A stretch of 61,177 bases of DNA from a virus: IMG/VR virus record IMGVR_UViG_3300025009_000108, positions 1 to 61,177 of that record; one strand, 5' to 3'. A program made the position numbers and the translations under genes. Shown piece after piece: positions 20,785-51,310 of this stretch. Position 1 is the first letter of the stretch. Each line of letters starts with the position of its first letter. Under the pieces are notes generated by a model. That model was given only the letters and a program-made list of their open reading frames with translations, made no database searches and was not told the origin of the DNA.

Positions 20785-21141
20785 TCATTCCCCGAACTGA
20801 ATAGTCAACGTTTTAGGCGCCTTTGGATAAACTATCGTTTCGGACGGCTCCGGAATTGTGTACACGACGATGTTTGAGTCCGGCGATTCGATAGTTCCCT
20901 GATATGCTCGCGCCACGAATTTAAATGTCACGCCGGCCGGAAAGTCCGGCAATGTGCATGTCGTAGTGGTTCCCTGCCAGGCAGGGGTGGTATAAACGAA
21001 CGGTTGGCTTTCAGGAGCCCAATAGATCCGATACCCTTCAGGAGCCGGAACGCTGGCGTCCCATCGAAGGGTTACGTCATTGGCCTGAACTGCGCCGCAA
21101 AGCGCGAATACCGCCAATAATGCCAAGGTAATCTTTTTCAT
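20785..21141 (-). CDS. Exported fibronectin-III-like protein (118 aa)
   Basis: The start at 21141 has AAAAGGAG upstream. A type I signal peptide (MKKITLALLAVFALCGAVQA, cleavage after AQA or so) precedes one FN3-like beta-sandwich (VTLRWDASVPAPEGYRIYWA ... FKFVARAY ... ESPDSNIV). It is the smallest member of the exported fibre/adhesin cluster and would be periplasmic or extracellular. Confidence 0.78.
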   Translation of the reverse strand: MKKITLALLAVFALCGAVQANDVTLRWDASVPAPEGYRIYWAPESQPFVYTTPAWQGTTTTCTLPDFPAGVTFKFVARAYQGTIESPDSNIVVYTIPEPSETIVYPKAPKTLTIQFGE

Positions 21142-21184
21142 TTCGTAATCTCCTTTTTTTATTGTAAAGTAAACTCCATACCGC

Positions 21185-22525
21185 TTATCGGTAATTACCA
21201 GTCCCATAAAATATAGTCCCGGTGCCTCCAAAAGAGCGCGCTGGAACTGGAGTTGGTGTTGGCTCTCCGTCCACATACTCGATCGCCCCACGATCCCATT
21301 CTCCATCAGCACCCCTTTGCGTTCCTGCCCAATCCTGAGTGTAGGGGCTTGACAGCGTATAACCTGCATCCATGGCTGCAACTGCTGCTGGGGTAAGCGA
21401 GAAGTCCCCGGCTGCAATATTGACGAATGGGTTTCCAGTTCCAGTGTAGGCGCTGGTGCCAGAGGTAACATTCGAGCATGACCACCACCCGTTGTGTGTA
21501 TTTGTAGGGGTAGAATTTTGAAACCCCGCGTTAGAGTTGTAGCATACATTATTCCTAAACTCTCCAGTGACGCCAGTATCGCTTCCGAGGATTCGGTTGT
21601 TGCAACTAATAAATGCATTGTTGTATATGTACGCCTGGAGAGAATAATGCACACCAGCGATAATTCCATCTCCTACCGTTATATCGTAAAACACATTGCC
21701 ATAGATATAGTATGGACCTGATGGAGCATTAAGAGCAACTATACCGCCAGTTCCAGAATCGCGACCCTCAATCCAATTATACCGAATCGTCCACCAGCGG
21801 CAATTCCCATAGTTGTTGTTAAACTCTTCTCCATGCTGGGCGGCAGAACTATATCCATTTAAAATAACATTGTATTCACTTAACCAATAGTCGTTTTTGT
21901 TGTCCGCCGCTTCATACCCAGCTGTACCCCATTGGAAGTTTGACCATCCATTTGCGAGACAATGACTGATAGTCAGATAATGAACTCCTTCGCTGGAGTT
22001 ATCAGTAGAGAAAAAGAACTTTTCTACGTCTCCACCCGGAGCTGTGCCGGTGAAGTGTGAGAAAGTAATGTCAGTTATTACCGCATTAATATTGTAGGCG
22101 GAAAGCGCTCCATTGGAAGACGCCGTAACAAAACCATAATCGGATGCGGTCTTACTCATTGAACCTTTTGCGCCGTCGATCACCCAATAGGAAGACTGCA
22201 CCACAAGACCACCGGTAAAAGACGCCTGGCCATCCCCAAGGCCAGAACTCCAATTAGACAACCCACCGTAATCAGAATCAGTCGCCTTTTTTACTGTTAT
22301 TAATGTTGTTCCTGAAACCGCAGTGCTAAAGGTTTTTCCGGCGTATGTGCCATCTACTAAATAATATGAGTTTCCGCGTGTCAGCGTGCTCGACCACGCC
22401 AGAAGATTATTATAATCTGACCCACTACCGTTACCAGTGGCCGAAGGTCCGACTGCATAGTTCGCAGCAAAACAGTTGCCTAAAAGCATCAGCATGACAA
22501 CTGTTGCGCGAATTATCGTTTTCAA
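21185..22525 (-). CDS. Exported parallel beta-helix protein (tailspike/pectate-lyase-like)
   Basis: The start is a TTG at 22525 with GGGGAGC upstream, needed for the signal peptide (MKTIIRATVVMLMLLGNCFA). The 446-residue body is rich in N, G, S and T with parallel beta-helix repeats (Y..DGTY.GKTF, VIDGAKGS, IYGNVFYDI, YIYNNAFISC) and a C-terminal RGADGEWDRGAIEY segment common in bacterial secreted right-handed beta-helix proteins, then PTPTPVPA. It may bind or cleave polysaccharide. The secretion signal is unusual for a phage tailspike. Confidence 0.8.
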   Translation of the reverse strand: MKTIIRATVVMLMLLGNCFAANYAVGPSATGNGSGSDYNNLLAWSSTLTRGNSYYLVDGTYAGKTFSTAVSGTTLITVKKATDSDYGGLSNWSSGLGDGQASFTGGLVVQSSYWVIDGAKGSMSKTASDYGFVTASSNGALSAYNINAVITDITFSHFTGTAPGGDVEKFFFSTDNSSEGVHYLTISHCLANGWSNFQWGTAGYEAADNKNDYWLSEYNVILNGYSSAAQHGEEFNNNYGNCRWWTIRYNWIEGRDSGTGGIVALNAPSGPYYIYGNVFYDITVGDGIIAGVHYSLQAYIYNNAFISCNNRILGSDTGVTGEFRNNVCYNSNAGFQNSTPTNTHNGWWSCSNVTSGTSAYTGTGNPFVNIAAGDFSLTPAAVAAMDAGYTLSSPYTQDWAGTQRGADGEWDRGAIEYVDGEPTPTPVPARSFGGTGTIFYGTGNYR

Positions 22526-22536
22526 GTTATGCTCCC

Positions 22537-23328
22537 CTATTGTGCCTTAAAGGCCATGAACCCTGATATATATTGGTCACTTGAGTCTACTGTTGCAAAG
22601 TTCCCAGCAGGATAAGATCCGGTTGAGCTTACAATCTTGTCAAACGCACCCCAATGGACACCACTTGCTGCGCTCCTTCGATTAAAGCTACCGGCAGCGG
22701 TGTAGGTATGATCGTTATTCCAAGATAGTTCAAAAGCAACCAGCAAATCGTTGGCGTTCGTGGTAGTAATATTTTGTGCCGTTCGATTCGTTGACGAAGC
22801 CGCAATATCGTTGCAGCTCGCGCTATTGCAAGAAAATCCATCGAGCGCAGAACTGGTTGCAACTCCGCTATAGTTCATGCACTGGATGCCGTTATAAGTA
22901 CTTGCGTATCCCGGATTTGCAGCAGCGCATGTTGTCGAGCCGGCCGTAGCGCCTTCTTTATACCAATAGCTGACTATGTAATGAGCCGCTGTAACCGTAG
23001 TCACTCCAGCCTTTGTAAGCGAGTTTGCGCCACAATCTACGGTAGACCAATCTTGATTGTCGAACTCATACCGTCCTGCTTGGCATACCAAAAGATCATT
23101 TGTGGCAACATCTAAATTGGTAGATGTGGTAATGGTATTGACAGAGGTATCTACCACGTTTAAAGCGATGTTCTTGTAAGCTGGTGTTGGAGACGGAGTC
23201 GGCGTAGGCGTGCCGCCAGACACCCTAAGCATAGCAGGCTGCGAGGAAGACCACCACGCATTTGCCGTAAACGGTATAATAACCGCGCAAACCAGCAAGA
23301 AGCAAATAAGGTCTACGTATCTCTTCAT
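22537..23328 (-). CDS. Exported beta-rich adhesin-like protein (263 aa)
   Basis: A signal peptide (hydrophobic about 7-24, ending TANA) is followed by a PTPTPSPTP linker and one beta-sandwich-like domain with many W, Y, S and T residues and paired cysteines. The start overlaps the previous stop by 1 nt (TAATG). The domain resembles 'secreted surface' modules; carbohydrate binding is plausible but unproven. Confidence 0.72.
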   Translation of the reverse strand: MKRYVDLICFLLVCAVIIPFTANAWWSSSQPAMLRVSGGTPTPTPSPTPAYKNIALNVVDTSVNTITTSTNLDVATNDLLVCQAGRYEFDNQDWSTVDCGANSLTKAGVTTVTAAHYIVSYWYKEGATAGSTTCAAANPGYASTYNGIQCMNYSGVATSSALDGFSCNSASCNDIAASSTNRTAQNITTTNANDLLVAFELSWNNDHTYTAAGSFNRRSAASGVHWGAFDKIVSSTGSYPAGNFATVDSSDQYISGFMAFKAQ

Positions 23329-26300
23329 TAGTCTGCCGCCCCTCCATCAGCGCAAGCCGCAGTTTCGGAAAATACCCGCCACTCGTTTTCAGCGGTACAC
23401 ATCAAGGTAACTTTTGTTCCAGCCGTAGCGGCCATATCCAATTCATCATTTGCGCCGATACCGGTTCCGTCGAATAGATAGAATTGATCGCCAGAAGCAG
23501 GAACAACTTCAATTTTTTCTGCGTCACGCGCCCACAACGTAACGAAGTTGCCAATCGTTGCTGCGGTGCAATCCCACATGGTGACTTCATCGGCAGTCGT
23601 CATCTGAATAATACCGCCGCCATTATCAGCCTGGGTTGCTGTTCTGGCCGCAACGTAAGAATTAAACTTGGCCCCTGCTTGGAGTGCGATGTTAGCAAAA
23701 TCAATCGCCGTAACGCCGGTGCCGGTGCCCACCACTACCTTGTTGGCCGTTCCATCTGTGTCTATTGTGAGATTTTCGTTGTTCGCCCCATTGACAGAAG
23801 TAATTGTCAATACTCCGTCTGTTGCGCTCAAACGAACGTCCGCGTCATTGGGATCGGCAGCAGATTCATCAAAAGTAAGCGTTTGACTATCCGCAAAGGT
23901 AGCCCCACCGTTCAGGGCAACGGCTGGGGTGAATGCGAATGTTGCACTGGTGCCGCTGGCAAATGTCCAAAGGTTGGTTCCAGCGGTGGCGGTCATGTCT
24001 TCGCTATTCGCGAACCATGAAAAAGCGTTTGAGATATAACCCGCTTCCCCGTCAGCATTGGCAGCCGAGTTTCCCACAAAAGCCGGGGCTGTCTGGTTGC
24101 CGGTGTAGGTGTTCGCGGCGGTCGTTGACAGTGTGGCGGTTGCTGCTGGGAATGTAATTGTGGCGTCTGCTGCCTGCGAAGCGTTCGGAACAAGGGTGGT
24201 GCTATAGTCGGTGGCACCAAGTTCGTTATAAAGCACCAGAGAGCCGTCTTGTGCGTCTGCTCCGAGGGTCATGGCGTTTGTGGTCTTGTTGAACACAAAT
24301 CCAGTGTCACCGCCCAGGGCCGACCCGCCATCATTGAACTGAACCTGAGTATCAGATCCAGCAGCGGCAGCAGTAGGAGACGCCCATGTGAGCGTTCCGC
24401 TTCCATTGGTCTGAAGGTATTGGCTGGCATCACCATCGTTGGCCGGAAGGGTCAGAGTGTAGCTTGCAGCCATGGCCTGGGTTGTAATCGTTGCCGTGTT
24501 ACTACCATCATCGCTGTCTTCTGCGATGGTGAGTTGCCCCGCACCTGTCGCCCCGCGATTGATCGTGAGCGCAGCAGAAAGTGTTTTAGCTCCGCTGATG
24601 GTCTGTGCGTCCTGGACATTTACAACCGCTTTTTCGGAGCCATTGACAGAGTACTTCAGTTGATCAGATGAGTCTGTTTCAAACCATATGGCATACTCAG
24701 AAGCGCCAGGAGATCTTCCACCTGCATTGTTCGCCAAAGATATATAGGAGTCTCCTGAACCTGTAACTTGAAAAGACGTGGCATAAATAGTTGACCCTGA
24801 CTCTATTGGGCCTTCAGTGTACAAAGAGTTGGTCGTTGTTGCGTATGTCGGGGCAACGGTTGTATCGTCATCGATCCATATCGCGTGCGAATTTGCCCCG
24901 CGTAGTACGGATTGCACAGCGAGGGTATCTGTGTCGGCATTTCCAAAAGTAAGCGACCCGGTAAAGGTCTGATCGCTACCAAGGTTGGCCAAGGTTTGCG
25001 CAACGTCAACCAACGTAATAGCCCTGGCAGTGGACAAGCCCGTAATCGTAGCGTAACCGGTGCCATCAGAATCGTAGACGCGGTTGACGTGCCCAGAGGC
25101 GTCGACATCGGCAGCGGCTACCCGCTGGTGCGTTGTTCCGTCAGAGATGTCATCAATACTTCGGCTGGTGATCTGTGTAATGTTGGTCAATGTAATATCG
25201 TCAGCGACGTAAGCGTTCGCAACCGCCGTGCCCTGCCACGTCCCGGCCGAGATTGTTCCAGCGTTGGCTATGCCCCCACTGAAGGTTGTAGCCGGCGTGA
25301 TCGTCACTCCAGAGGCCCCCGAAGCACCGATTGCAACCACTTCGGCAGAAGTCACCCCGATTACCGATATGTCAGTTCCGGCAATATCCGCTTCTGACAT
25401 GATATACCCAGCGTTTGGAAGCCTGATCGACCCGGCATCGGAGGGATCGGCCCCCAAGGCTATGTGCGATGAAGCAGCAAGCGATGCCGCCCCGGTGATG
25501 TTATTCGACGCGTCAACCGATATGCCCGTTACCTGTGTCAGGTTGCCGGTACCGTTGGTCTTGATAAGTCTCAAATCAGTACCAAAACCGGCGGGGCCAA
25601 GAACGATGGAGCCCGTTTCGGCTGGGATCGTAACCGTAACATCTGATCCAGCGTTTGCGCCAGCCAAGGCGATTTCAAAATCGTTTACCGTGGCGCCTTC
25701 AAAGTAAAGCGTGTTGGCTACGTTGCCGTCAGAAGCCCCATTTGTAAAAGCAACACCGCTTGAAGCATCGCCTACCGCTGTAATGTCACCAGAACCAGCC
25801 GGATCGCCCCACTGAGGATTGGCGCCTGCGCCTTGGGTTTGAAGGAACTGCCCGTTTACACCAGGACCAAGATTTGCGATATTGGTTCCATCAAAATACA
25901 GGATGTCTCCCTGGGCCAAAGTCTCATCGGCGATGTCAGTCAAATACGCATCAAGGGGCTGATAGGTTGTCGCCGGGAGGGTGCTTAACACGCCGGCATC
26001 AGAAGACACCACCAATGCATTCGCAGCTCCAGGATAAGCCGTTGGGAATGTCCATGTCAGGTTGGCGATGGAGTTTCCGGGGGAGAGCTGTGTGTAATGG
26101 CTGTCACCGTCATAAAATCTAATGTAGGTCCCGCCGTCGCTCGAACCATCTCCGCATGCTCCGTCTACACAATCACCAACTGAAAGAACGTCACCAGAAG
26201 ACGAAGCCGCCAGAGCTGCTATAGCCTGGGCAACCCGCAAAGGAGACATTGATCGAAGAGCTGCTTCGGTTCCTGCTTCCATTTCGGCTTGGCTCGCTGC

Positions 26301-26897
26301 GGATAGGGCAGGTTCGAATGTGGCCGGGTTGGTCCAGCCACCAGTGCCATCAGCATCAACATTGAACAGGTAGTTGGCCCCGCCCGGGTACGCCGTTGGT
26401 ACTCTAATCCCCCACGATTCGGTGAAATTCGCCCCGTAAAGATCGAAGCTGAAGTTATTGGCTGGGGTATTAGAGTAGATTTTAAGGGTACCGAGAGTGG
26501 TTCCAGCAACGCCAAGCTCAAGACCGCCAGCCCCGCTGATCGTGAGACCAGCAATAGACAGGGTAGAATCCGCTATGGACCCGTCTCCGTCAGCGTCGAT
26601 GGTTGCCATCAAATAATCAATCAACGCATTTTGAGAGGCCCCATGAGATGTATCCCCGTTCATGTTCGCTGCTGTTACTGCTTCATCAACGACTTCGGCG
26701 GTAGCCCCAGAAAACTGCGTAGCGAGGATCGATGGCGACCAAACCCTTGTCCTTGTCTCGGTCCCTGCGGTCAGTTCTGCCGCAGATCCGGCAGGCGGAG
26801 GCGGTATGGCAGGAACGCCACCGGTCCTTTCGAGACGAGAGGTAACACCACAACCAAACATCAAAAAGGCAATGCCGATCAAAAACAGCTTTTTCAT
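23328..26897 (-). CDS. Lipoprotein-type tail-fibre protein (1189 aa)
   Basis: ATAGGAGAC precedes the ATG. A lipoprotein signal peptide (MKKLFLIGIAFLMFGC, lipobox MFGC) leads into SRLERTGG and then a very long repetitive beta shaft of phage fibre type: ELTAGTETRTRVWSPSILA and EMEAGTEAALRSMSPLRVA are the familiar tail-fibre 'AGT...SP..L' motifs, followed by repeated TLTFGNADTD-, GASDGNVANTLYF- and ITFPAATATLS-like strands. The C-terminus has paired cysteines. It is probably a receptor-binding fibre, strangely carrying a lipidation signal. Confidence 0.8.
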   Translation of the reverse strand: MKKLFLIGIAFLMFGCGVTSRLERTGGVPAIPPPPAGSAAELTAGTETRTRVWSPSILATQFSGATAEVVDEAVTAANMNGDTSHGASQNALIDYLMATIDADGDGSIADSTLSIAGLTISGAGGLELGVAGTTLGTLKIYSNTPANNFSFDLYGANFTESWGIRVPTAYPGGANYLFNVDADGTGGWTNPATFEPALSAASQAEMEAGTEAALRSMSPLRVAQAIAALAASSSGDVLSVGDCVDGACGDGSSDGGTYIRFYDGDSHYTQLSPGNSIANLTWTFPTAYPGAANALVVSSDAGVLSTLPATTYQPLDAYLTDIADETLAQGDILYFDGTNIANLGPGVNGQFLQTQGAGANPQWGDPAGSGDITAVGDASSGVAFTNGASDGNVANTLYFEGATVNDFEIALAGANAGSDVTVTIPAETGSIVLGPAGFGTDLRLIKTNGTGNLTQVTGISVDASNNITGAASLAASSHIALGADPSDAGSIRLPNAGYIMSEADIAGTDISVIGVTSAEVVAIGASGASGVTITPATTFSGGIANAGTISAGTWQGTAVANAYVADDITLTNITQITSRSIDDISDGTTHQRVAAADVDASGHVNRVYDSDGTGYATITGLSTARAITLVDVAQTLANLGSDQTFTGSLTFGNADTDTLAVQSVLRGANSHAIWIDDDTTVAPTYATTTNSLYTEGPIESGSTIYATSFQVTGSGDSYISLANNAGGRSPGASEYAIWFETDSSDQLKYSVNGSEKAVVNVQDAQTISGAKTLSAALTINRGATGAGQLTIAEDSDDGSNTATITTQAMAASYTLTLPANDGDASQYLQTNGSGTLTWASPTAAAAGSDTQVQFNDGGSALGGDTGFVFNKTTNAMTLGADAQDGSLVLYNELGATDYSTTLVPNASQAADATITFPAATATLSTTAANTYTGNQTAPAFVGNSAANADGEAGYISNAFSWFANSEDMTATAGTNLWTFASGTSATFAFTPAVALNGGATFADSQTLTFDESAADPNDADVRLSATDGVLTITSVNGANNENLTIDTDGTANKVVVGTGTGVTAIDFANIALQAGAKFNSYVAARTATQADNGGGIIQMTTADEVTMWDCTAATIGNFVTLWARDAEKIEVVPASGDQFYLFDGTGIGANDELDMAATAGTKVTLMCTAENEWRVFSETAACADGGAAD

Positions 26898-26905
26898 TTT
26901 GTCTC

Positions 26906-29494
26906 CTATTGGCCAGTAATGGAGCCTGCGCCATCACCATTGATTGTGGCGGAACCTCCACCGCTAATAATCCCCAAGCCTGTTACTACTGGTAGTATAT
27001 CAAATTTATAAACATCCGTCACCATGGCATTTCCGTCCGTATCTGAAGCATCAATTGACACATTGACCTCTTGCCCATCGCTGTAATCGGAAGGGTTTAA
27101 GGTTACGGTATAGCTTGCGGTTGTTCCGCTGGTGGCAAGGTCTGCCGTTCCTCCTGAGCATGTCTCGCTGGTCGGGCAATGTTTATTGCCTTCCTCGTAA
27201 AGCACGATTGATGATCTATTGACTCCACCGCTATCCGACACAACAAAGCTTATATTGGTGCTTTTTGAAACACCCGTTGCGTTCTTAGCAGGGGACCATC
27301 CGGAAACAACCGGTGGAGATACATCTCCATCCGCCGTGCCTACAAAAAAGTCGTCTATCCATATTACTTGATCAGCGGAAAGATCATTCTGTCCGCTCAG
27401 ATACGGACCAAGCACCACTTGGTTAAAAAACTGGGAAGTGTACCAGCCCTTTTTGATAACGACATTGGTTGCAGTGAAAACCGGTGAATCAAAATCGTCT
27501 ATCCACATCTGCAATATACCATCTTGATTGATGGTAGATCCGGTAAGCGTGTTCATTTTTACACGGTACATGACCTCATGCCACTGGCCGTCAGCAAAGG
27601 ATGATATAGATTGCTCCCACCATCTTACGTTTAGGTTTCCTATACTGCTGCTGCCAGAAAAATAGCACGAAACTCCCGTGCCGGCATTGGTGAAGTTCCC
27701 ATGACCTCCGTGAGCAGCTCCCTGGCTAAAGTTGGCTGTAAGGTCAGTGCCTATTTGGTCGTCGTTTTGCCCATCACCGTCCAGGTCCAGGTTTTTTGCG
27801 TCCTGAAAACTCATGGTTAGAATATTGTTATATTCATGTTCCATGTAGGCGGTAAGGTGCGTGTTGGCCAGTCCAGCCCATGCGCTATCTGCGTCAGTTT
27901 CCAGATAAACCCAATGATCCGCATATGTACCAAGACCATTGCCAACATAGTTCGTTGAGGATTTAAATTTGTACTTTACATAGATCTCAGGCGTCTGACT
28001 GAACTGCGCTCTGAGACTTCCAAGAGCACTCGCCGTTCCACTACCGTTGGTCGGCCTGTAAGCCCCTGGGGTGAAGCGGTACTCAAAGACATACCCGTTA
28101 TCGGCAACAAAGTTTGCAGCGTTCCAGGAGCCTGCGGCGTGCCCCACCACGCACTTGTAGAGCTGCCCAGAGTAAATGACATCATCCCCGATATTATAGG
28201 CGGTACTCGATGAAAATGTTGAAGCCGAACGTGTAGCCCGGTCCGTATCGATCACAAATCTCTGATTGATATCGTCATAGCATCCGGCTGCGGTCAATCC
28301 GGCTGATCCCGTTTCGGCGTGAAGGTAAAGAAGCGTGACCGGAGGAGGAGGGGCCTGGTCATTATCGGTCAATACGATGGTAGCGGTATTCGGCGTTCCA
28401 AGGTCATATGTAGCCCCGTCCGTGATGGTCAATATGGCCGCCTCATCGCCTTCGGAAAGCGAATCATCGACCGGCGTTATTGTAACCGTCGCCGTGTATT
28501 GCCCAGAAGCGATAGAGGCCGAACCGCTCACGGCTGAGTAGTCCGTCCCGCTGGTAGCCGTCCCGCTCATCGAGTAAGCAACCGTCAAAGGGCCGGCCGT
28601 GTCGCTCGTGATTGTAAATGTTCCGGTAGTCGTCCCTTCTTCCGTTGCTGAAGAATCTGTAGCGGTCACGGTAATCAATGGATCTGTGCTTGCCGACAGA
28701 GGGCCTATCCTTCCAGTTGTGCTTATCGCTATGTCGTCATAGTAAACCGTGAAGGTTTGTCCGTTATCCGCTCCGGTGAAATCTGTTTTGACGTTGGAGG
28801 GGAAAATCAAATACCTTAGATTGCCATAAGTTACTAATCCATTCTCATCTATAACCGGTGTCGGATTGTCTACACCGTCTACGTACTCCCACATTCTGAA
28901 AACACCAGAAGAGGAGATATAAACCTCCATAGCGTGCCAAGATCCACCGCCACGGCCTGCATTATCATAGAAGTCATCCCAATTATTCGTGCTTTGCCTG
29001 CCAGACGTACCATCCCTGTCATACAGCCTAAAGTCTGTAGTGTTCTGATCGAAATACCATGAATCCGTGGCAAAATAGATATAAAGAAGCTTATGGCTGC
29101 TGAACCCGAGTGAATGCGACAGGGGCATTCCGCTTGGATGGTAAAAGTACCATCTAAGATATATTTGAGGGGTTGAATCAGGTACGTCTATGAAAAACCC
29201 GGAACCTGTCGGACCTGTGCTTCCAGTTGTGTTCCCATCACCAACCTGCCAGTAAAGCCCGTTACCACCGTCTCCACCTGAATAATTCGATCCGGCAGAG
29301 ATCCCGCTATTAAGACTTGAGCATGTTCCGATCTCCCATCCGTCACAAATATCATCTCCAGAGTTCGCGGAACAATAAGCATTTGTGACATCCAGGGTCG
29401 AGCAATCGAACGTTGTTGACCATGGCAACGAGGTTATATCGGCGCTCGCCGGGACAACCATCAAAAGAAAGAATAAGCACGCAAGACGCTTCAT
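26906..29494 (-). CDS. Exported multidomain adhesin (Calx-beta, lectin-like domains)
   Basis: After a signal peptide (MKRLACLFFLLMVVPASA) the 862 residues show a jelly-roll/LamG-like domain (about 25-270), a Calx-beta domain (about 275-385, EEGTTTGTFTI...GTATSGTDYS...SLSEGDEAAILTI), a short chitin-binding-like YNIGDDVIYSGQLYKC module (about 435-460), a second jelly-roll domain (about 480-720), and a bacterial Ig-like/Calx-type end (about 725-845). Such domain mixes are typical of secreted polysaccharide-binding proteins. Confidence 0.8.
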   Translation of the reverse strand: MKRLACLFFLLMVVPASADITSLPWSTTFDCSTLDVTNAYCSANSGDDICDGWEIGTCSSLNSGISAGSNYSGGDGGNGLYWQVGDGNTTGSTGPTGSGFFIDVPDSTPQIYLRWYFYHPSGMPLSHSLGFSSHKLLYIYFATDSWYFDQNTTDFRLYDRDGTSGRQSTNNWDDFYDNAGRGGGSWHAMEVYISSSGVFRMWEYVDGVDNPTPVIDENGLVTYGNLRYLIFPSNVKTDFTGADNGQTFTVYYDDIAISTTGRIGPLSASTDPLITVTATDSSATEEGTTTGTFTITSDTAGPLTVAYSMSGTATSGTDYSAVSGSASIASGQYTATVTITPVDDSLSEGDEAAILTITDGATYDLGTPNTATIVLTDNDQAPPPPVTLLYLHAETGSAGLTAAGCYDDINQRFVIDTDRATRSASTFSSSTAYNIGDDVIYSGQLYKCVVGHAAGSWNAANFVADNGYVFEYRFTPGAYRPTNGSGTASALGSLRAQFSQTPEIYVKYKFKSSTNYVGNGLGTYADHWVYLETDADSAWAGLANTHLTAYMEHEYNNILTMSFQDAKNLDLDGDGQNDDQIGTDLTANFSQGAAHGGHGNFTNAGTGVSCYFSGSSSIGNLNVRWWEQSISSFADGQWHEVMYRVKMNTLTGSTINQDGILQMWIDDFDSPVFTATNVVIKKGWYTSQFFNQVVLGPYLSGQNDLSADQVIWIDDFFVGTADGDVSPPVVSGWSPAKNATGVSKSTNISFVVSDSGGVNRSSIVLYEEGNKHCPTSETCSGGTADLATSGTTASYTVTLNPSDYSDGQEVNVSIDASDTDGNAMVTDVYKFDILPVVTGLGIISGGGSATINGDGAGSITGQ

Positions 29495-29502
29495 TTTATC
29501 TC

Positions 29503-32796: not shown

Positions 32797-32810
32797 CTGG
32801 TGCTCCTTTC

Positions 32811-41183: not shown

Positions 41184-42017
41184 TTACTGAATCCCCGCTT
41201 GTTTGGCGGCATCTTCTTTGCTCAAGCCCTCTTGTCTAAGTTTGAAATATTGGGCTTTTTGTTCTGGAGTTACGGAACCTTGTTGTGTAGGCGCTCCACC
41301 CGGTTGACCCTGCGTTTCAGTCCCAGCCTTATTGCCCTGTGAGCTTTGCTGACGAAGATATTTTGCAAGCTGTTGGGCTTTGGTTGCCATCTCCTCGCTG
41401 GATTTTCCAAACATCGTAACATCGTTCTGAAGCATCTGAGCCGCCGGCCTCAAGAACGGATCTACATCCACACCGATAAGGCGTTCCTGTTCAGGAGTAG
41501 CCTTGCCCTGCATGAATGCATTCCAGGATTCAAGTTTCATCTGCTTAAGTCCGTCGCCTTGTGAACCTGCTCGCATTCCGGCGATCTTCTCGGCAGAGAC
41601 CCTGTTAAGACCCGCAACCTTTTCTCGTGATGTCCGGTCGAGAGATTTTTCCTTTGAGTCCTGGGACTGCTTCCTCATGGTCTGATAGGCTTCGAAAGCT
41701 TTTCTGCGAGTTGTCGGAACGTTCAGAATGTCTTCAGGTACAGTTGACATCAACTTCTTTTTGGCCGCGTCGTCAAGCTTTGACGTGCTGATTGCAATTC
41801 CGAAGGTAACCGGCTCGTCCAAATGTTGCTCGCGTTTTTCCTTAGCGAGAGCTGCCTCTTGTTGGCTTGCGCGGCTCTGAAGTTCTAGGTCGGTTCGAGC
41901 ACCTGCCAGACTAAGCCCCTGCATGGCTTCTTCATGGCGCTGCTTATCCAGAGACAAACCTCTAACCCTGTCCGAAAGTGAATTGATTGCGTTTGGAACC
42001 AGAGCGTAATCAGGCAT
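41184..42017 (-). CDS. Internal virion (ejection) protein, helical (277 aa)
   Basis: The start at 42017 (MPDYALVPNAINSLSDR) has CCGGAGG upstream and overlaps the preceding gene by 8 nt. Almost wholly helical and charged, with an E/K/Q/R-rich centre and a glycine/glutamine-rich C-terminus (NKAGTETQGQPGG). This fits podovirus ejection proteins located next to the giant internal protein. Confidence 0.68.
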   Translation of the reverse strand: MPDYALVPNAINSLSDRVRGLSLDKQRHEEAMQGLSLAGARTDLELQSRASQQEAALAKEKREQHLDEPVTFGIAISTSKLDDAAKKKLMSTVPEDILNVPTTRRKAFEAYQTMRKQSQDSKEKSLDRTSREKVAGLNRVSAEKIAGMRAGSQGDGLKQMKLESWNAFMQGKATPEQERLIGVDVDPFLRPAAQMLQNDVTMFGKSSEEMATKAQQLAKYLRQQSSQGNKAGTETQGQPGGAPTQQGSVTPEQKAQYFKLRQEGLSKEDAAKQAGIQ

Positions 42018-43320
42018 TTTGTACCTCCGGCGTTTCGGTCCTACTATAACACGGATATAATTCCGGCGCATACTGTTTTATAAGCGCCAGGTATTTTTCT
42101 TCATAAATCTTGTGCGCTTCCTCAAAGTCTCCAGACTCCATGTGCTCCATTATCGGGGCGATGGTGTTCTGCTTAAAGTCATTGTAGAAGTTGACAAGAT
42201 CAACGTTTAAACGCTCTTTTATCGCCTTGACCAATTTAGGAGCGTTCACAAAATAATGCATAGCTATTCTATGGTGATTCTTTTTCGAATAGTGCTTCAA
42301 GGCTTCAAGTTTTTCCATTATCAGGTCTTCGATGCCTACGATTTTTCCGGTTTCGGTGCAAAGCCAAGAAACGTCATCTATCACATCACTAAAAAGGTTT
42401 GCCCCGGCACTGATCGGGTCTATCAAACCGCCAATGACATCGGCGGTTCTGTCATCTGCTCCGGTAAAGTCCTTTATGCCTTCATGTAGAAAATCGTATC
42501 CGGCAACCCCAATTGGATTAGCCCATTGATTAACCATGGCCGGCCCCTCTGCGGTCATATCTCCCCAATCTCCGCGAAGTACGGCAGAGTCAAAGCGCTC
42601 TCCAGCGGTCGGACGATCAAAGCTTTGTTCTGCCCAACCCATCCACGGTTCCGTAAAGAAGCGCGGCTCCCAATTGCCCTCATCGTTTGTGCTGAAAACA
42701 TCACCAGTCTTGATCCCTTTATATTCCCTATCCGTATCTTTTGATAGGGCGTGCTGTCCTGCGATTATAGCTCCAATAGCCGCCGTTGTGCCCAGGGCGC
42801 CACCAGCTCCAGCGGTGGCCCCGGCTTCGGCGCCACCTGTCGCGCCAACAGAGGAAGCCGCACCTGCCCCACCAGTTCCAACAAGGGCCGATTCTGCCGC
42901 CGCTGGCGCCACTGTGGTTGCGGCGGGAGCAGCGGAAGCAGCAGCCCCTTCAGAAAAAAGTCCAGCCACAGAACCTACCCCGGACTTAATATAAGGTGCC
43001 GACTGAATGGCCAAGCCAGCCGATGAAACACCTGTCGCAAGGGCTGCTTGCTTTTGAGCCTCTGCGCCCTGCTCTTGCTGGAGTTTAAGCGTTTCTCCAT
43101 ATTGCTGCTTTTGAGTATCCAGGTTCTCTTGGAACTGTGATTGATTTTGGGTAAGTTCTTTTTCGTACAGCTCTTTTTGCTGGTCCATCCGCTTTTGCTC
43201 AAGATCCCGAGAAAGCTTACTGTAATAAGCCTCTCTTGCAGTGGGAGCTTCGGCGCGGATAATATCGCTGTATCTGGGAGATCCTACCTTGCGACCGGTC
43301 AACGAATAGAAGGGGTCCAT
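42010..43320 (-). CDS. Internal virion (ejection) protein (436 aa)
   Basis: The N-terminus is a Q/E/K coiled coil (about 35-90), followed by a long Ala/Gly/Ser membrane-active-looking region (about 90-200, ATGVSSAGLAIQSAPYIKSG, AGATAGAGGALG) and a globular C-terminal half with DDVSWLC and a helical end. Similar layouts occur in podovirus pilot/ejection proteins that line the trans-envelope channel. Role inferred. Confidence 0.68.
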   Translation of the reverse strand: MDPFYSLTGRKVGSPRYSDIIRAEAPTAREAYYSKLSRDLEQKRMDQQKELYEKELTQNQSQFQENLDTQKQQYGETLKLQQEQGAEAQKQAALATGVSSAGLAIQSAPYIKSGVGSVAGLFSEGAAASAAPAATTVAPAAAESALVGTGGAGAASSVGATGGAEAGATAGAGGALGTTAAIGAIIAGQHALSKDTDREYKGIKTGDVFSTNDEGNWEPRFFTEPWMGWAEQSFDRPTAGERFDSAVLRGDWGDMTAEGPAMVNQWANPIGVAGYDFLHEGIKDFTGADDRTADVIGGLIDPISAGANLFSDVIDDVSWLCTETGKIVGIEDLIMEKLEALKHYSKKNHHRIAMHYFVNAPKLVKAIKERLNVDLVNFYNDFKQNTIAPIMEHMESGDFEEAHKIYEEKYLALIKQYAPELYPCYSRTETPEVQNA

Positions 43321-43323
43321 TTT

Positions 43324-43827
43324 TTACTCCACTCTTAGAAGTTTAACCCATTCGGCCCAGCGCTGTTCTTCAGCGGTTCCGGCGTCCTGGTATTTTTTTA
43401 TAATCTGATCCATCGCCGCCTTGCGGTCATCTAAGCGATTCATTTCTTTGTAGGTTCCGAGTCCTTGCAGTCCTAACCCGGCCACGGAAAGACCGGTAGC
43501 CCAATTGCCAGCGCGTTTGTTGTGCGCCATCTCTTCGCCGGCCATATCCATGCTGTCAGAAAAGCGCTGCTTGTCGAAATCCAGGCTCTTTTGGAATCGA
43601 TCAGATTGAGCCGATAATGATTTTTCGGCCATCTCCTTGTTTTGGGCGAGTCCCTTTTCAGCCAGGCCAAGACGGCCTTGTGCATTTTCAGCTCTTTTTT
43701 GCACGGCGTAATCTCGCGCAGATGATTCGGTGATGGCATCTTGGGCAGAAGTGTCAACGGCCGGTCCTGCCTGTCTTCCAAGGCCCATTAAAAGCCTATC
43801 AGTTAATTGTGGCGTCCATCTAATCAT
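43324..43827 (-). CDS. Internal virion-associated protein (167 aa)
   Basis: A long helical coiled region (ENAQGRLGLAEKGLAQNKEM, SLDFDKQRFSD) is followed by a glycine-rich short hydrophobic segment (GLSVAGLGLQGLG) and a charged helix. It resembles a shorter relative of the neighbouring ejection protein (coiled coil, then GxxxG segment). AGAGGATTAAGC precedes the ATG. Confidence 0.62.
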   Translation of the reverse strand: MIRWTPQLTDRLLMGLGRQAGPAVDTSAQDAITESSARDYAVQKRAENAQGRLGLAEKGLAQNKEMAEKSLSAQSDRFQKSLDFDKQRFSDSMDMAGEEMAHNKRAGNWATGLSVAGLGLQGLGTYKEMNRLDDRKAAMDQIIKKYQDAGTAEEQRWAEWVKLLRVE

Positions 43828-43829
43828 GC

Positions 43830-46800
43830 TTAATCCTCTCTGATCATGCGGGCTTTATACCCCCATACCAGCGGCTCCCATTTTTCCGATGACGTGGAAG
43901 CCGCAAAATCTACCTGATACAGATACCCCATAATGCCCATGGACTTTTCACCGGCCTCATTCCTGGAAACTGCTCCTGAAGCTGCGTTAAGCGGTATCGT
44001 CAGGGTCTTGCTCGATAAAGTACCATCGACATAAGCCGATACAGTCACATCTCTGTCTTCAGTGATTTTAGAAGACATGAGTTTAATGTCCCTAAGTTCT
44101 GCCTGAGTCCAAAAACCGATTTCATCCGCAACAGGTGGAGAAAATAGCCCGGTCTTAATTTCCTGGGATATGGCCGTTCCGTTCCATGTAGCGCCGTAGT
44201 CAAGGCGCATCAGATGCCCTGAAGCAAGATGCCCGTAATTGTAGCGAACACCGTCAGAATCCTTAACCGGAACAGTGTAAACCGGATATTCAGAAGGAGC
44301 CTTGCGATACCAGCGCCGGCCTTTCAAATCACACACCAACCATGTGTTATTAGCTGCCGCCGCTGCTCCTGAAGGAATCAAAAGATTGTATTCATGATGG
44401 ATATGGTCGTAATAGGCCGTAGCAAGGCTGATATTGGAAGTATTTATGTATTCTGTCTTGGTGGTGTCAAAATAGTTCTCAATGCCAGGCATCGGTGTTA
44501 AAATCGCGCCGTCGAATAACACAGGTCCGGAAGAGTCGAGCCAAATAAGGGCATTTCTTTTCGCTTCTTCAGCTACTTCGAAGCCAATTTCTGCTGAAAC
44601 CATCGTCATGGGAGCCGGGCACCCGATATTGGTTGAGATAGTCCTCTTTACGAACGGCTCGTTAAAGTCAAAATAGGGTTGCGCACCGGTCAAAAGGTAT
44701 GTTTCGCCGGTTTTGCACACTATCCAAGATTCAATAATGTTGGAGCCGTATCGGTTGAATAGGCTGGAAGTCGCCGTGATCTTGTTTTCGTCACCGAAGA
44801 ATAGAGAAAGGCGCCCGCCGTCCGATGTATTGACCCCATTATAGACCCAAGGGGCATCCGGCAGGCTGTAGTCAACTCGGTTATCTTTTATAAGCATGGC
44901 GCGGCCGGAGTAGAAGCCCACCTTATCATATCCCGTCATCTTCAGGGGCGCGGCGATACCGGTAAGTAAATCTATACTTGTGCCATCGTGGGCGGTGCCA
45001 TCCGTCAACGTGCCGCTGAGGTTTATTCGGTAAACATATCCAAGCTTGCCGAACTTTTCAACGGGCTGCTCAAGGTTGAGTGGCAGCGGAGACCAACTGA
45101 TAGACCCTGTTTGCGCAAACGAAGTAACGAAGGCCGGGGCAGTCTTGTCTTGCAACGTGCCGACAGTCGTATAATCCGAGCCATCCCAATAGTCGATTGA
45201 GGAAATTGCCGCAGCAGCGGCATTGACCTTGGCGCCCAGCATGGTTACAAAGATACCCATAACTGGATCATCGAACATAATGAAGATTTTGTCCGTGGCC
45301 GTCAGCCCTCCGATAGTAGCCGCAAAGGGTGCGTCAACGGTGGATTTCTCATTTACCTGGTAGGTATAATCCTCATATTTTGAAGATCGTAACGCCTGAA
45401 ATGCCGTGCATGTGCGTTCGGATGCGTTCCATACATCCTTGACAGTTTGCAACGGCGCACCGCATGTAACCTTGTATATGTTGGCTGTCCCGGTAGATAG
45501 ATGAAATCTGTACCAATATAGTACAACTCCGTTTAAATATCTTAGCTTTGCCAGATTGGCGGCATCTGTGAATGAAATAGTGCCGGTCTGGTTTAGCGGG
45601 ACAGCGCCCACCCTGGTTCCGTCCGTAAACGTCATGTCGCTCCATGACCCACCAGACCAAACCGATCCAGATAAAGTCGCAGAAACAGTATTCGGGTTAG
45701 AAATATAAAGCTTGATGGCGTTCAGTTGCAGAGGAGAACCGACATAGAAATACTGCTGTTGAGCAACGACCGTAAGGGAGTAAGGAGCTACCGGCGGAGT
45801 GAAATCCGAAACAAAACGTGCCAACCCTTTAGTGACGCGGTATTCGTCCAGATAGGTCGGGTTTACCGTCAACCCTACTGTGTTCTGTCCAGCTATAATC
45901 AATGGGGTAGAAAGATTTGGCATCGTGATGTTGGCCGTAGCTATAGCGATCGCCACTCCATCGGATACAAGGGCGAAGTCGTTTGCGTTTCCGCCCCACC
46001 CTCTCACCACCGCGAAATGATGCCATGCATCGGCGCCCAAAACTGAGGCCGAAGGAGAAGTCAGGCTCACCAGTTCGACTCCGCCAGACACTACCCTGAA
46101 GGAAACTTCGATAGAATCAGAAGAAAATCTATACGCGGTAAAACTTATTGTGTTGTCACCGTCTACATATTGGCGATAGATGAAACGCGCTCGGGCGGCG
46201 ACGAAACTTGGGAACCTGCACCATGTCTCTATGGTAAACGGACTGGTCCCGAAGTCCCAATCGCTTGAATCCGGCGTTGTCAAATAATCCTGGTCTGGAT
46301 CGAAGTATCCGCTTTTACCAAAAACACCATCGTCAGCCTCAACATGCGCACCCCCAACAGCCGTTACCGTGTGTAAGCCAGCCGTGTCCGTAAAAGTGGT
46401 AGAGCCATCAACCCCATTCATGTGCAGCAACAGCTTCGTATAGGTGTCCGTCGTACCTCCGGCCAACGTAATGTATTCGGAGGATAAATCGTTATCTACC
46501 AGATTTGTTCCATCAACGATATCTCCCTCGTCAGGTGGCACAAAAGCGTTGGATGAAGTGAAAAACGATGCAACTCGTAACTCATCTCCGCCATAAATCA
46601 ACGTGGCGTTATCATCGGCATATAACATCGTGCCGGCAGGCCCGGCAGAAAATGACCCCTGACCGCTGGCCATGAAAACGTTATTCAGCGTGTTGCTGCT
46701 CAGTGCGGTTGTAGAAAAATTGCCCTGCTGAGGTACTGCGGACGTGTTTTCATAAAGGAGATACGAGGAGCCGTTATAGGCCTTGGTGATGAAATGGGTT

Positions 46801-47084
46801 TCATCGTCCTTGCGAAACTGGAACCCATTAATGATGGTGCCAGAGATCGGGGTAGTGGTAATAGCCGAATATCCCTCGACGGTTTCAAGTCCCGTATCGT
46901 TGTATCTCAAGTTGTTTAGAACGGTATAGTTTTTTGCTCCAACATGAACAGGATTGATGGCAGGAAGCCATTGACCCATGAAAGGTAATTGGAATATCTT
47001 ATCGGCGGTATCCCAGGATATCGATAAAAGGGCAACGGTCACCAAGATTACCGCTACCGCAAATTTTTTGCCGTGTTTGCGCAT
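43830..47084 (-). CDS. Tail stabilisation/hub protein with hydrophobic leader and inserted LamG-like domain
   Basis: The segment IFQLPFMGQWLPAINPVHVGAKNYTVLNNLRY followed by VEGYSAITTTPI is a pattern I recognise from podovirus 'packaged-DNA stabilisation'-type tail proteins. Here it is preceded by a Sec-like hydrophobic leader (about 8-23, FAVAVILVTVALLSIS). Residues about 210-430 form an inserted LamG/concanavalin-like domain (KLLLHMNGVDGSTTFTD, FTIETWCRF, WHHFAVVR, YLDEYRVTKGLARF), found in carbohydrate-binding virion proteins. The rest is beta-rich tail structure. Starts on the previous stop (TAATG). Confidence 0.78.
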   Translation of the reverse strand: MRKHGKKFAVAVILVTVALLSISWDTADKIFQLPFMGQWLPAINPVHVGAKNYTVLNNLRYNDTGLETVEGYSAITTTPISGTIINGFQFRKDDETHFITKAYNGSSYLLYENTSAVPQQGNFSTTALSSNTLNNVFMASGQGSFSAGPAGTMLYADDNATLIYGGDELRVASFFTSSNAFVPPDEGDIVDGTNLVDNDLSSEYITLAGGTTDTYTKLLLHMNGVDGSTTFTDTAGLHTVTAVGGAHVEADDGVFGKSGYFDPDQDYLTTPDSSDWDFGTSPFTIETWCRFPSFVAARARFIYRQYVDGDNTISFTAYRFSSDSIEVSFRVVSGGVELVSLTSPSASVLGADAWHHFAVVRGWGGNANDFALVSDGVAIAIATANITMPNLSTPLIIAGQNTVGLTVNPTYLDEYRVTKGLARFVSDFTPPVAPYSLTVVAQQQYFYVGSPLQLNAIKLYISNPNTVSATLSGSVWSGGSWSDMTFTDGTRVGAVPLNQTGTISFTDAANLAKLRYLNGVVLYWYRFHLSTGTANIYKVTCGAPLQTVKDVWNASERTCTAFQALRSSKYEDYTYQVNEKSTVDAPFAATIGGLTATDKIFIMFDDPVMGIFVTMLGAKVNAAAAAISSIDYWDGSDYTTVGTLQDKTAPAFVTSFAQTGSISWSPLPLNLEQPVEKFGKLGYVYRINLSGTLTDGTAHDGTSIDLLTGIAAPLKMTGYDKVGFYSGRAMLIKDNRVDYSLPDAPWVYNGVNTSDGGRLSLFFGDENKITATSSLFNRYGSNIIESWIVCKTGETYLLTGAQPYFDFNEPFVKRTISTNIGCPAPMTMVSAEIGFEVAEEAKRNALIWLDSSGPVLFDGAILTPMPGIENYFDTTKTEYINTSNISLATAYYDHIHHEYNLLIPSGAAAAANNTWLVCDLKGRRWYRKAPSEYPVYTVPVKDSDGVRYNYGHLASGHLMRLDYGATWNGTAISQEIKTGLFSPPVADEIGFWTQAELRDIKLMSSKITEDRDVTVSAYVDGTLSSKTLTIPLNAASGAVSRNEAGEKSMGIMGYLYQVDFAASTSSEKWEPLVWGYKARMIRED

Positions 47085-47758
47085 TATTTCTGCTGGTCCT
47101 TTACCTGAAGGTCTTGTCGGTAAAAGCCTATTTCCTGGTTATACTTTCCCATCATGGATTCGTGCATGGCCGTGTTCTTGTCCTTTAGAGCCATGCGCGA
47201 TAAAATGTAGTACTTTAGAGCCACGTCATATATTGCCGGAGTTGAAATAGTTCCTGAAGACACTATCGGTACGGGCCATTTCACAAGATAAAGCGTGACC
47301 GTCTGAGTCGTAACAGAAGAAAGAGATGGATAAATGCCTATTTTCCCTGCAAATTCGTACCAAAACGCCGGGGCGTCCGTGTCTGATTCTTCCGTGTTTA
47401 ATCCGATCTCCGCAGGGCTTCCTTTTTTAAGGGCAAATTTGTTTGTGCCGTTATAGTACTGCACGGCTACAACTTCGACATAGTTTGAAGTAATCGAGTA
47501 TTCTACCGTGTTGGCTACAAGAGATATGCTTTCGGTTGCTTCGTAGCAATGCGATTTGTTTACCAGGTCGACAATGCCGTCATTGAGGAACTGGAGCATT
47601 TCCGCATCGGTGAAATAGACTGAAGTAGTATCGTTGTAATCGGCTCGTACTTGGGCGATCATGGACGAACCGGTTGTACTAGAAACCTGCTGAGAGCCGG
47701 CCATGCAAACCGAAAATAACGAAAAAACCGCCACGATAGCCCAACATATCGATTTCAT
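47084..47758 (-). CDS. Head-tail adaptor-like protein with signal peptide (224 aa)
   Basis: The start at 47758 overlaps the upstream stop (TGATG). A clear signal peptide (MKSICWAIVAVFSLFSVCMA) is fused to an adaptor-like core: MIAQVRADYNDTTSVYFTDAEMLQFLNDGIVDLV, then a beta-rich part with FWYEFAGKIGIYPSL and TVTLYLVKWP. Podovirus connector proteins of this pattern normally begin directly with the 'I..VR......F.D.E....INDG..D' helix. The export signal is anomalous. Confidence 0.78.
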   Translation of the reverse strand: MKSICWAIVAVFSLFSVCMAGSQQVSSTTGSSMIAQVRADYNDTTSVYFTDAEMLQFLNDGIVDLVNKSHCYEATESISLVANTVEYSITSNYVEVVAVQYYNGTNKFALKKGSPAEIGLNTEESDTDAPAFWYEFAGKIGIYPSLSSVTTQTVTLYLVKWPVPIVSSGTISTPAIYDVALKYYILSRMALKDKNTAMHESMMGKYNQEIGFYRQDLQVKDQQK

Positions 47759-48624
47759 CAATCTGAGTCTCCCCATGCGTTCCGAATATATTGTGGCTCC
47801 GAAGACGCTTTTAACGAAAGCCCTATTTGAGCCGTGATCATATTGAGCATGCCCTCGTGGAAGCGCTTGCTTTCGATGATATCCCCAAAAGTGGGATCGT
47901 CCGACTTTGGGATTCTGATAAGGTCAAGAACGGCGAAAGATACCAGCCCTTCATGGTATTCAGCCGGAATATCGGTTATGGCTGATGGGGCCTTCTCGTA
48001 ATCGATCATCACGTCATTGGTAAAATCGCGATCATCGACTATGATCTCATTGCCCCTTGGATACCATTTACGATCATTGTCCTGGCTTGCGTCGGGAAGG
48101 ATAATCCGCTTGATCTCATCCGGCCACAAAGGTATTTTGAAGGCGTACCCTCCAGATGTCCAGGCTGAACTATAACCGGTTCCCTGAAGGGCGTAGGAGT
48201 CGGCGCTGATGTAGCTTATACGGAAGGTTCCATTAGCCTCTGTCGCCCCGCCAACATCGTGTTGCATAATCACATCTCCGTCAGCGAAGCCGTGGTCTGT
48301 TACGCTCATGATGACCAAACCACCGCCGCCGAACGTGATGGGCAGAACATATGGGAATGTGCCGGCTGTAATACCGCTTACCGCTTTGGCTGTTGTGCCA
48401 AGATCCCACAGCTTTTCAACCCGAATGCAATCCGAAGGCTTTGTGAAGGCATGAGTTTCGGATTGCAACGATTTTCTAACGAGAAAATAGCTCGGGTCGG
48501 TCTGCTTGATCTTGATTCCCATGACAGTGACACCCCTGAGCAAAACCGCAGAGATGTCACTGCTGGAAAGGCGCGGGTTTCTACAACCGCGTTGCACGCT
48601 CGCTATCATTTCGGCCTCAAGCAT
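47758..48624 (-). CDS. Head-tail connector protein (288 aa)
   Basis: TTAGGAGGCCCC precedes the ATG. No signal peptide. The N-terminus is helical; a central region has beta repeats (FGGGGLVIMSVTDHGFADGDVIM, a short ubiquitin-like or Ig-like insert about 90-150), then YRGNEIIVDD-type strands and a C-terminal helix. By position between coat/decoration and the tail adaptor it is a portal-proximal connector; I cannot name a closer family. Confidence 0.65.
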   Translation of the reverse strand: MLEAEMIASVQRGCRNPRLSSSDISAVLLRGVTVMGIKIKQTDPSYFLVRKSLQSETHAFTKPSDCIRVEKLWDLGTTAKAVSGITAGTFPYVLPITFGGGGLVIMSVTDHGFADGDVIMQHDVGGATEANGTFRISYISADSYALQGTGYSSAWTSGGYAFKIPLWPDEIKRIILPDASQDNDRKWYPRGNEIIVDDRDFTNDVMIDYEKAPSAITDIPAEYHEGLVSFAVLDLIRIPKSDDPTFGDIIESKRFHEGMLNMITAQIGLSLKASSEPQYIRNAWGDSD

Positions 48625-48633
48625 TGGGGCCTC

Positions 48634-49881
48634 CTAATATCCGATGATGCGCACCTTAACGCTTGTCATGTTTGAAAGATTGCTCGCGTTCGCGGCCTCA
48701 AGCTGTACAATGCCGGGGATTTCGTAGGGCTGGCCGGCAATATAGCTCAATTTGACATGATCACTATCGGCGTGGTTACTTCCGAAAGTCAATGTGTTGG
48801 CCGTGTTGTTGATCGTCGTTGGCTGCGCAAGAGTAGCTGTAGTGCCTACCGCTCCAGCCGAGCGTATAAGGTTGGCGAACTTGGTAGTTGGCCCGGCAAG
48901 ATCACCGCAGGTCCCGTAAAGCAGCATGTTCGATCCTGCCGCAATACCAGAGGAGGCCGTCACAATATCAGATGACGGCGTAAGGTCATCCTCTTCGATG
49001 AAGCGGTAATTCAGGAATCCGGACCCTGGGTTTTTGATGTAGCTGATATAGACGCTATCGGTTGCCGCATCCAGGGTATCAGTCTGAAGCACGCTTAGGC
49101 TGGTGGTAGAACTTCCAGAATCGGTAAAATCGATGGTGGCTTCAGCCGTGGCGGCAGTCTCGGACTTATAAAGCGCCTTCATGGGTTTGTAGGTGCCGTT
49201 ATCATTCCAAAGCACGGATTGAATCGCAACGGCATACTCGCCAAGGCTAATTACGTCCGGGGTTCCTGCGGTAAAAGCCAGAGATGCGTGCCCCTGGACC
49301 CTTGCACCCGCAGTGACGATGGCAAGAACGTAGTTATCAAAAACTTCTTTCCATGCCTGAGTCACATAGGTCACGTTGCAGGCCGTAACAGAATCGCCGG
49401 CAAGGAAGGTCAGTGTGTTGCGGGTGCCCCAAACAGGCTCAGACACGGAGACCGACCCTGTAACAGGAGTAAGCCCTCCAGGAATGACCTTATACGATGC
49501 ATTTCCTGCGCTGACATACATGATATAGGCAGCCGGGTATTTGAGTGTGCCAACGTTCGTAGACACCGTTACGGGCTCTTCAAACACGATGGGCGGAGCG
49601 TCAGTGAACGCCTTTAGCTTTTTGTTGGTGTAATCGTACTCGAAATTGACCCCGCCAGTTGATTGGGCATCCACCGTATCGATGTTGGTGAATCCCAGAG
49701 TCGCATAATCCAGGCTCTCACCGCCATAGGCATACGATGAATCCCAGGCGATAGTGCATGTGAGCATGCGGCGTGCGCCGAGGTTAGTGAATTTTTTGTT
49801 GCTTACCGTCAATGCGGCGGAGGCCGGGATAGACCAGGCCACAATCATGATGAGGGCAAGCATAAAGCGAATATGCTTCAT
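48634..49881 (-). CDS. Exported structural protein of unknown function (415 aa)
   Basis: AAGGAGATTGAG precedes the ATG. A signal peptide (MKHIRFMLALIMIVAWSIPASA, cleavage after ASA) leads a beta-rich, S/T/A/D-rich protein with few charges. It lies between the decoration protein and the connector, where virion genes usually sit. No known family; the placement makes a capsid-surface or tail component likely, yet its leader directs export. Confidence 0.72.
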   Translation of the reverse strand: MKHIRFMLALIMIVAWSIPASAALTVSNKKFTNLGARRMLTCTIAWDSSYAYGGESLDYATLGFTNIDTVDAQSTGGVNFEYDYTNKKLKAFTDAPPIVFEEPVTVSTNVGTLKYPAAYIMYVSAGNASYKVIPGGLTPVTGSVSVSEPVWGTRNTLTFLAGDSVTACNVTYVTQAWKEVFDNYVLAIVTAGARVQGHASLAFTAGTPDVISLGEYAVAIQSVLWNDNGTYKPMKALYKSETAATAEATIDFTDSGSSTTSLSVLQTDTLDAATDSVYISYIKNPGSGFLNYRFIEEDDLTPSSDIVTASSGIAAGSNMLLYGTCGDLAGPTTKFANLIRSAGAVGTTATLAQPTTINNTANTLTFGSNHADSDHVKLSYIAGQPYEIPGIVQLEAANASNLSNMTSVKVRIIGY

Positions 49882-51298: not shown

Positions 51299-51310
51299 GA
51301 TTATCTCCTA

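Follow-up and report, generated by a model that had tools for sequence, protein, structure and literature searches.

Tailed phages are taught to assemble their tails in the cytoplasm. Virion proteins with Sec signal peptides are known from filamentous phages, whose coat proteins pIII and pVIII are assembled at the envelope; unlike the phage described here, these are non-tailed single-stranded DNA phages extruded without lysis, and no homology to them was sought or seen. The present analysis concerns a 61,177-base IMG/VR record (IMGVR_UViG_3300025009_000108; "the window", meaning the whole stretch analysed), in which late genes of an uncultured short-tailed phage, including those for a neck adaptor and a putative tail nozzle, start with Sec or lipoprotein export leaders. 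In Kuravirus SU10, a described short-tailed phage, the adaptor forms a dodecamer and the nozzle a hexamer (PMC9509320). The window adaptor belongs to Pfam SU10_adaptor and the gene order from portal to fibres is the same; SU10 structural genes, however, lack leaders apart from one weak call, whereas adaptor, nozzle, fibres and decoration protein are tagged in the window. The T4 protein Spackle (gp61.3) is likewise phage-encoded, with a cleaved Sec leader and a tail protein as its periplasmic binding partner, but it is a small inhibitor of the gp5 lysozyme, and T4 does not export its structural tail in this way (PMC7650644). The original prediction that no described phage has this pattern holds for the literature searched, in which no tailed phage with export-tagged structural tail proteins was found.

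The late block of the window is encoded on the minus strand, as are the leader-bearing and leaderless late genes described below, in the order portal, scaffold, coat, adaptors, putative nozzle, ejection proteins and fibres. Leaders were identified by reading and with a rule-based caller that scores a basic n-region, a hydrophobic core free of charges, the -3/-1 rule and the lipobox. Type I leaders were taken to have, in the first 30 residues of the protein, a basic n-region, a hydrophobic core 8-15 residues long and small residues at both -3 and -1, and lipobox leaders to have an invariant Cys at +1 behind the hydrophobic stretch. Eight window genes have type I leaders, that of the nozzle with a weak c-region, and two (23328-26897 and 30561-31862) have lipobox leaders. 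All nine late-gene leaders of the original prediction (six type I, one type I on the adaptor and two lipoboxes) are thus present, as is the hydrophobic leader it had noticed on the tail-hub gene 43830-47084. No Tat leader was found in the window. The caller recognised 9/9 exported control proteins of Escherichia coli. Leaders occur on 10/23 late genes of the window against 2/124 structural genes of 11 control phages (T7, P22, SU10, N4, epsilon15, Pam5, ctMlz233, three pelagiphages and S-LBS1; Fisher p = 7e-8), which rules out ordinary hydrophobic N-termini of phage proteins as the source of the signal. One of the two control matches, in SU10, is weak, while the other, in Pseudanabaena phage Pam5 (L079:17837-18304), looks real; in this cultured cyanophage the Sec-type leader is on a small protein adjoining the tail spike. 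The earlier statement that coat, scaffold, portal, terminase and ejection proteins lack leaders was upheld in the window and wherever these proteins were seen in relatives, and the first adaptor is leaderless as well.

A Shine-Dalgarno match lies upstream of all ten leader starts, with poor spacing in a few, and five of the start codons overlap the preceding stop (TAATG/TGATG); the nozzle start overlaps the adaptor stop, and the adaptor start overlaps its own upstream stop. Alternative downstream starts that skip the leaders, named at the outset as a finding that could overturn the prediction, were not seen in the window with a usable Shine-Dalgarno sequence. Automatic start choice had passed over the leaders of the genes at 20785 and 21185, both of which were recovered by frame reading. 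Wrong starts are ruled out by the ribosome-binding sites, the stop-start coupling and the lack of internal starts backed by such sites. A dual start at adaptor residue M19 was also rejected; this methionine is present in the window and in the relative G001, but is Ile in G015. The late genes of the window are confirmed, as far as sequence can tell, to bear genuine Sec or lipoprotein leaders.

The adaptor (47084..47758, 224 aa) begins with a 20-aa Sec leader (nt 47699-47758) followed by GSQQ, and matches Pfam SU10_adaptor at 4e-20 (PF24175; 73.5 bits against a cut-off of 27, with 57.3 bits for the adaptor of the relative L161); against solved virion proteins its sequence gives a weak match (8jov, 12 chains, E 5e-4). 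Immediately upstream, the first neck (adaptor-like) protein (47758..48624, 288 aa) is leaderless in all lineages seen. The downstream gene (43830..47084, 1084 aa) codes for a putative nozzle or tail hub whose hydrophobic leader is about 23 aa long (nt 47016-47084), an assignment based on synteny and a profile match to leaderless relatives. Its sequence matches nothing in the PDB beyond a LamG-like domain. This lectin domain, inserted at residues ~200-435, also occurs in Rhizobium phages and in cyanophages; L161 does not have it.

The nozzle leader of the window has a weak cleavage motif. The nozzles of G001, G015, L161 and G416 also carry a leader. Adaptor and nozzle leaders co-occur in four lineages (the window; G001/G015; L161; G416) and are jointly absent in G417, G420, G002, G004, G008, G583 and G511, being concordant wherever both genes were seen. 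Adaptor and nozzle are in direct contact in known short-tailed phages such as SU10 (PMC9509320), and joint presence or absence of their leaders would be expected if binding partners need to be in one compartment. One nozzle gene is recognised per genome; since the sole recognised copy is tagged, the tagged copy must presumably serve the virion.

The leader-bearing relatives G001/G015, L161 and G416 are distant ones, at about 30-56% identity. G001 is 68% identical to the window in the terminase large subunit (TerL), 55% in the adaptor, 48% in the nozzle and 26% in the coat, and G015 is a near-copy of G001; in both of them the adaptor, nozzle, fibre and fn3 protein are tagged, along with two other late genes. 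In L161 (portal 44%, coat 46%, adaptor 30%, nozzle 32%), leaders are found on the decoration protein, adaptor, nozzle and two extra genes between adaptor and nozzle. One of these two extra genes (L161:12402-13193) carries a Tat leader, PITRRSFLK, which matches the S/T-R-R-x-F-L-K motif, scoring 19.9 bits with TIGR01409 against a cut-off of 16.7 (NCBIfam), while its score with Pfam TAT_signal is under the cut-off. Both adaptor and nozzle are tagged in G416. Some relatives are fragments; G012 was seen without its neck, which is off the contig, and G416 without its fibre region.

The adaptor leader and the GSQQ[TV]S motif following it are kept in four lineages, with GSQQ directly after the leader invariant while the leader sequences diverge. 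Between G001 and G015, replacements affect 5/20 leader codons of the adaptor versus 3/204 in the rest of the gene (p 2e-4), all of them hydrophobic or small swaps, and 2/23 in the nozzle leader versus 14/1050 elsewhere (p 0.04). Judged by its sequence, this divergence pattern is typical of signal peptides. The GSQ motif is not confined to proteins with a leader; the leaderless adaptor of G511, which begins MSVITLAGSQTRSSSLAS, has MSVITLAGSQTRSSS.

Comparison with homologues, proposed in the original prediction as a check of whether leaders are absent there, gave a divided answer: leaders are absent in G012, L156, L158-L160, L162, G417, G420, G583 and G511, and present in G001, G015, L161 and G416. 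A case in point is the putative capsid-surface (decoration) protein (48634..49881, 415 aa), with the Sec leader MKHIRFMLALIMIVAWSIPASA (nt 49816-49881). Its leaderless homologues, in G012 (65% identity), L156 (59%), L158, L159, L160 and L162, align from residue 23 and start there, at the predicted cleavage point. With 65% identity to its leaderless G012 counterpart and 27% to the leader-bearing one of L161, the protein nevertheless resembles the latter in being tagged, and the adaptor and nozzle of L161 are tagged too; surface proteins would seem to take on a leader when their genome is a tagged one. Similarly, the G417 and G420 adaptor homologues start at the domain, and the nozzle is leaderless in G417, G420, G583, G511, G002, G004 and G008. 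About 20 resolved SU10 adaptors (of 25 rows) in Desulfobacterota genomes have no leader, whereas those of the window, G001, G015, L161 and G416 have one.

A nozzle profile search of genomes found full-length homologues in the prophages G583 (E 5e-193) and G511 (5e-185), from the class of Solidesulfovibrio; a pattern-based comparison of the nozzle profile with genome contigs had given no match before this search within the right class succeeded. In these prophages, homologues of the first adaptor, the second adaptor and the nozzle are arranged as in the window. Unlike the window, they have adaptor and nozzle without leaders, which indicates that the leaders are add-ons gained or lost. A search for leader-bearing prophages across the phylum produced just weaker or LamG-only matches, and scanning viral contigs with the nozzle, decoration or portal protein singly gave no match, while two-row alignments did. 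As read from these sequences, the leaders are modular N-terminal additions gained or lost within the group.

The fibre/adhesin region (20785-31862) contains the remaining seven leaders. The fn3-domain protein (20785..21141, 118 aa; Pfam fn3, 1.6e-6) has the Sec leader MKKITLALLAVFALCGAVQA (nt 21082-21141), with an AAGGAG Shine-Dalgarno sequence 8 nt upstream of its start, and its homologues in G001 and G015 are also leader-bearing. At higher coordinates lie the genes of a secreted beta-helix-like protein (21185..22525, 446 aa, TTG start) with the Sec leader MKTIIRATVVMLMLLGNCFA (nt 22466-22525) and of a 263-aa protein (22537..23328), the start codon of which overlaps the upstream stop. The 24-aa Sec leader of the latter (nt 23257-23328) precedes a mature N-terminus, WWSSSQPAMLRVSGG, similar by eye to RWWPMVIGGG of the L161 Tat-leader protein. 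A Calx-beta / CBM5-12 / Big_5 protein (26906..29494, 862 aa) carries the Sec leader MKRLACLFFLLMVVPASA (nt 29441-29494), and a 352-aa protein (29503..30561), with a start overlapping the upstream stop, a 23-aa Sec leader (nt 30493-30561); a domain of this protein also occurs in a leaderless protein of Marinobacter phage PS3.

The two remaining genes of the region encode tail-fibre-like proteins with lipobox leaders. In the first (23328..26897, 1189 aa; MKKLFLIGIAFLMFG^C, nt 26853-26897), the lipobox FMFG^C is not the classic LAGC and was read by eye, the rule-based caller having assigned type I; this reading is backed by the G015 homologue, MKKITILALAIILLAG^C (LLAGC), which is at the cut-off of Pfam LPAM_1. 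The lipobox of the second (30561..31862, 433 aa; MKKIILIILTIVLSG^C, nt 31818-31862), VLSG^C, was called by the rule-based caller; the start of this gene overlaps the upstream stop, and its fibre module is also found in leaderless virion proteins of roseophages. Behind the cysteine, the lipoprotein fibres have in common an R-x-[LI]ER-[TSA]-G-type motif (CGVTSRLERTG, CAAQRSLERSG, CSTFRDIERAG). An unrelated, larger phage contig (L088:12925-16482) encodes a lone fibre-like protein of 1185 aa whose leader is of Sec type (MKRYLSAILISIFLLCDSAYS).

The explanation that we favour, while giving it slightly less than an even chance, is that distal tail, fibres and decoration protein are exported, trimmed and assembled in the periplasm, and are joined to packaged heads as lysis breaches the inner membrane. 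Its sequence basis, established in the genes themselves, comprises type I and lipoprotein leaders, a Tat leader in one relative, fixed starts, long conservation and exact N-terminal addition. Since type I, lipobox and Tat leaders occur in one gene set, their common denominator appears to be export, not a shared hydrophobic helix; the lack of leaders on the head and ejection proteins seen also supports this explanation. The proteins expected at the particle's exterior (the decoration protein, the second ring of adaptors, the nozzle, the fibres and the lectin-like spikes) would be made as export precursors, carried out of the cytoplasm by the host Sec/Tat pathways and freed of their leaders by signal peptidases. 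Adaptor, nozzle and fibres would then assemble in the periplasm, with access to disulfides and lipidation, while heads, closed off by portal and first adaptor (both leaderless), would fill in the cytoplasm. In the most speculative step, holin and endolysin would open the inner membrane and wall, and heads would meet the preformed tails and join them. A strict division by compartment is proposed more tentatively: packaged heads would be cytoplasmic, the whole distal tail and the outer decorations would be periplasmic, having passed through Sec/Tat/lipoprotein export, and the two would not join before lysis.

Several points weigh against periplasmic tail assembly. Export, cleavage and virion incorporation are inferred from sequence, and the portal-adaptor interface, normally cytoplasmic, would need to form after lysis. 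The putative nozzle is assigned by synteny and profile match, and fold models are poor (AlphaFold pLDDT 41.5 for the nozzle, with the adaptor model poor as well); a nozzle of the T7 gp12 / SU10 gp17 type would have platform, beta-propeller and nozzle domains. The adaptor tree does not reject a single origin of the leaders (support 73/77) and the nozzle tree lacks resolution, so shared ancestry could largely account for the co-occurrence of adaptor and nozzle leaders. Prophages G583 and G511 hold leaderless adaptors and leaderless nozzle relatives at 34-40% identity, and therefore export would not be intrinsic to the architecture. In G583 the only leader seen on a structural gene, of Sec type, is on a decoration-like protein beside the coat (L177, G583:C2:16537-17064), and this rules out a strict all-or-none export set. 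The G001 homologue of 23328-26897 has Tyr in place of the lipobox cysteine, with the residues after it also altered; lipidation is therefore hardly indispensable.

The four explanations offered in the original prediction fared differently: extracytoplasmic tail attachment is the favoured one, capture fails for adaptor and nozzle, uncleaved docking is disfavoured, and the exported proteins may have a surface-coat or exclusion role. The main rival, which we consider improbable, is a dual fate with an exclusion-type function, in which an exported fraction would act in the envelope or at the cell surface (superinfection block, receptor masking or display) and an unexported fraction would build the virion. 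Lipoboxes on two fibre-like proteins would suit it, and the nearest precedent would be Spackle, with a cleaved 22-aa Sec leader, which binds a tail lysozyme in the periplasm and limits superinfection (PMC7650644). However, no downstream start backed by a Shine-Dalgarno sequence is there to yield a leaderless form, no role in the envelope is obvious for adaptor or nozzle, and the leader is retained on the only recognised copies. The leaders could instead target or anchor nascent tail proteins at the cytoplasmic membrane, where these would assemble without translocation, or, left uncleaved, help the virion to penetrate a membrane, as the weak cleavage motif of the window nozzle and the better conservation of hydrophobicity than of leader sequence would allow; translocation and cleavage are implied, however, by AxA sites, by lipoboxes that precede a conserved motif behind the Cys and by the Tat leader, and leaderless homologues begin at the cleavage point, which makes such docking quite improbable.

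Capture of fibre-region genes from host secreted-protein genes, with the leaders as baggage, draws on the presence of elements usual in secreted proteins (fn3, Calx-beta, CBM, LamG, beta-helix) and on the stray tagged fibre of the unrelated contig L088. As a full explanation it is ruled out for adaptor and nozzle, which are phage families with leaders kept across deep divergence, and the fibre modules match leaderless phage fibres; overall its chance is slight. That the true starts lie downstream and the leaders are untranslated has almost nothing left to recommend it: some leaderless homologues do begin at that point, but Shine-Dalgarno sites and TAATG/TGATG coupling are at the leader ATGs and none downstream, and the leaders are conserved across lineages.

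The rest of the late block is leaderless. An ejection-type block (32811..43827) comprises a 2790-aa LPD38 protein and three smaller proteins, and coat, scaffold, portal and terminase large subunit are encoded at 50309..58466, the terminase at 56970-58466; terminase, portal, scaffold and coat form a tailed-phage set, and the window does not classify as a filamentous phage (inovirus), a group marked by an ssDNA genome, pI/pIV-type extrusion machinery and small coat proteins. Two adjacent small paralogues beside the portal gene (55225-55488 and 55589-55906; WFIFYCGDVRP...DNEF) represent a tandem duplication, and the early region contains a small plus-strand gene of lipoprotein type (MKKTITLLITIALFTA^C; 12013-12330). 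The G001 terminase (L059:3060-5513, 817 aa) has an insertion with a nested open reading frame that splits the match at residue 434, possibly an intein or homing-endonuclease insertion, and the G015 and G012 terminases are likewise enlarged. Records of Desulfovibrio, Solidesulfovibrio and further Desulfovibrionaceae contain TerL relatives at 42-53% identity; near those in L097-L102, from Desulfovibrionaceae genomes, no other late genes of this phage were recognisable. The TerL and nozzle relatives suggest that the host is probably a diderm sulfate reducer near Desulfovibrionia.

If the proposed export is true, the assembly line of this phage would be split between compartments, with an export tag on the outer parts only. 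Receptor-binding parts would gain disulfides, lipidation and envelope folding factors, and head-tail joining would become a lysis-timed event. Signal peptides have been used to class hypervariable proteins as non-phage (PMC6199706), and leaders on phage tail genes caution against the signal peptide as such a criterion.

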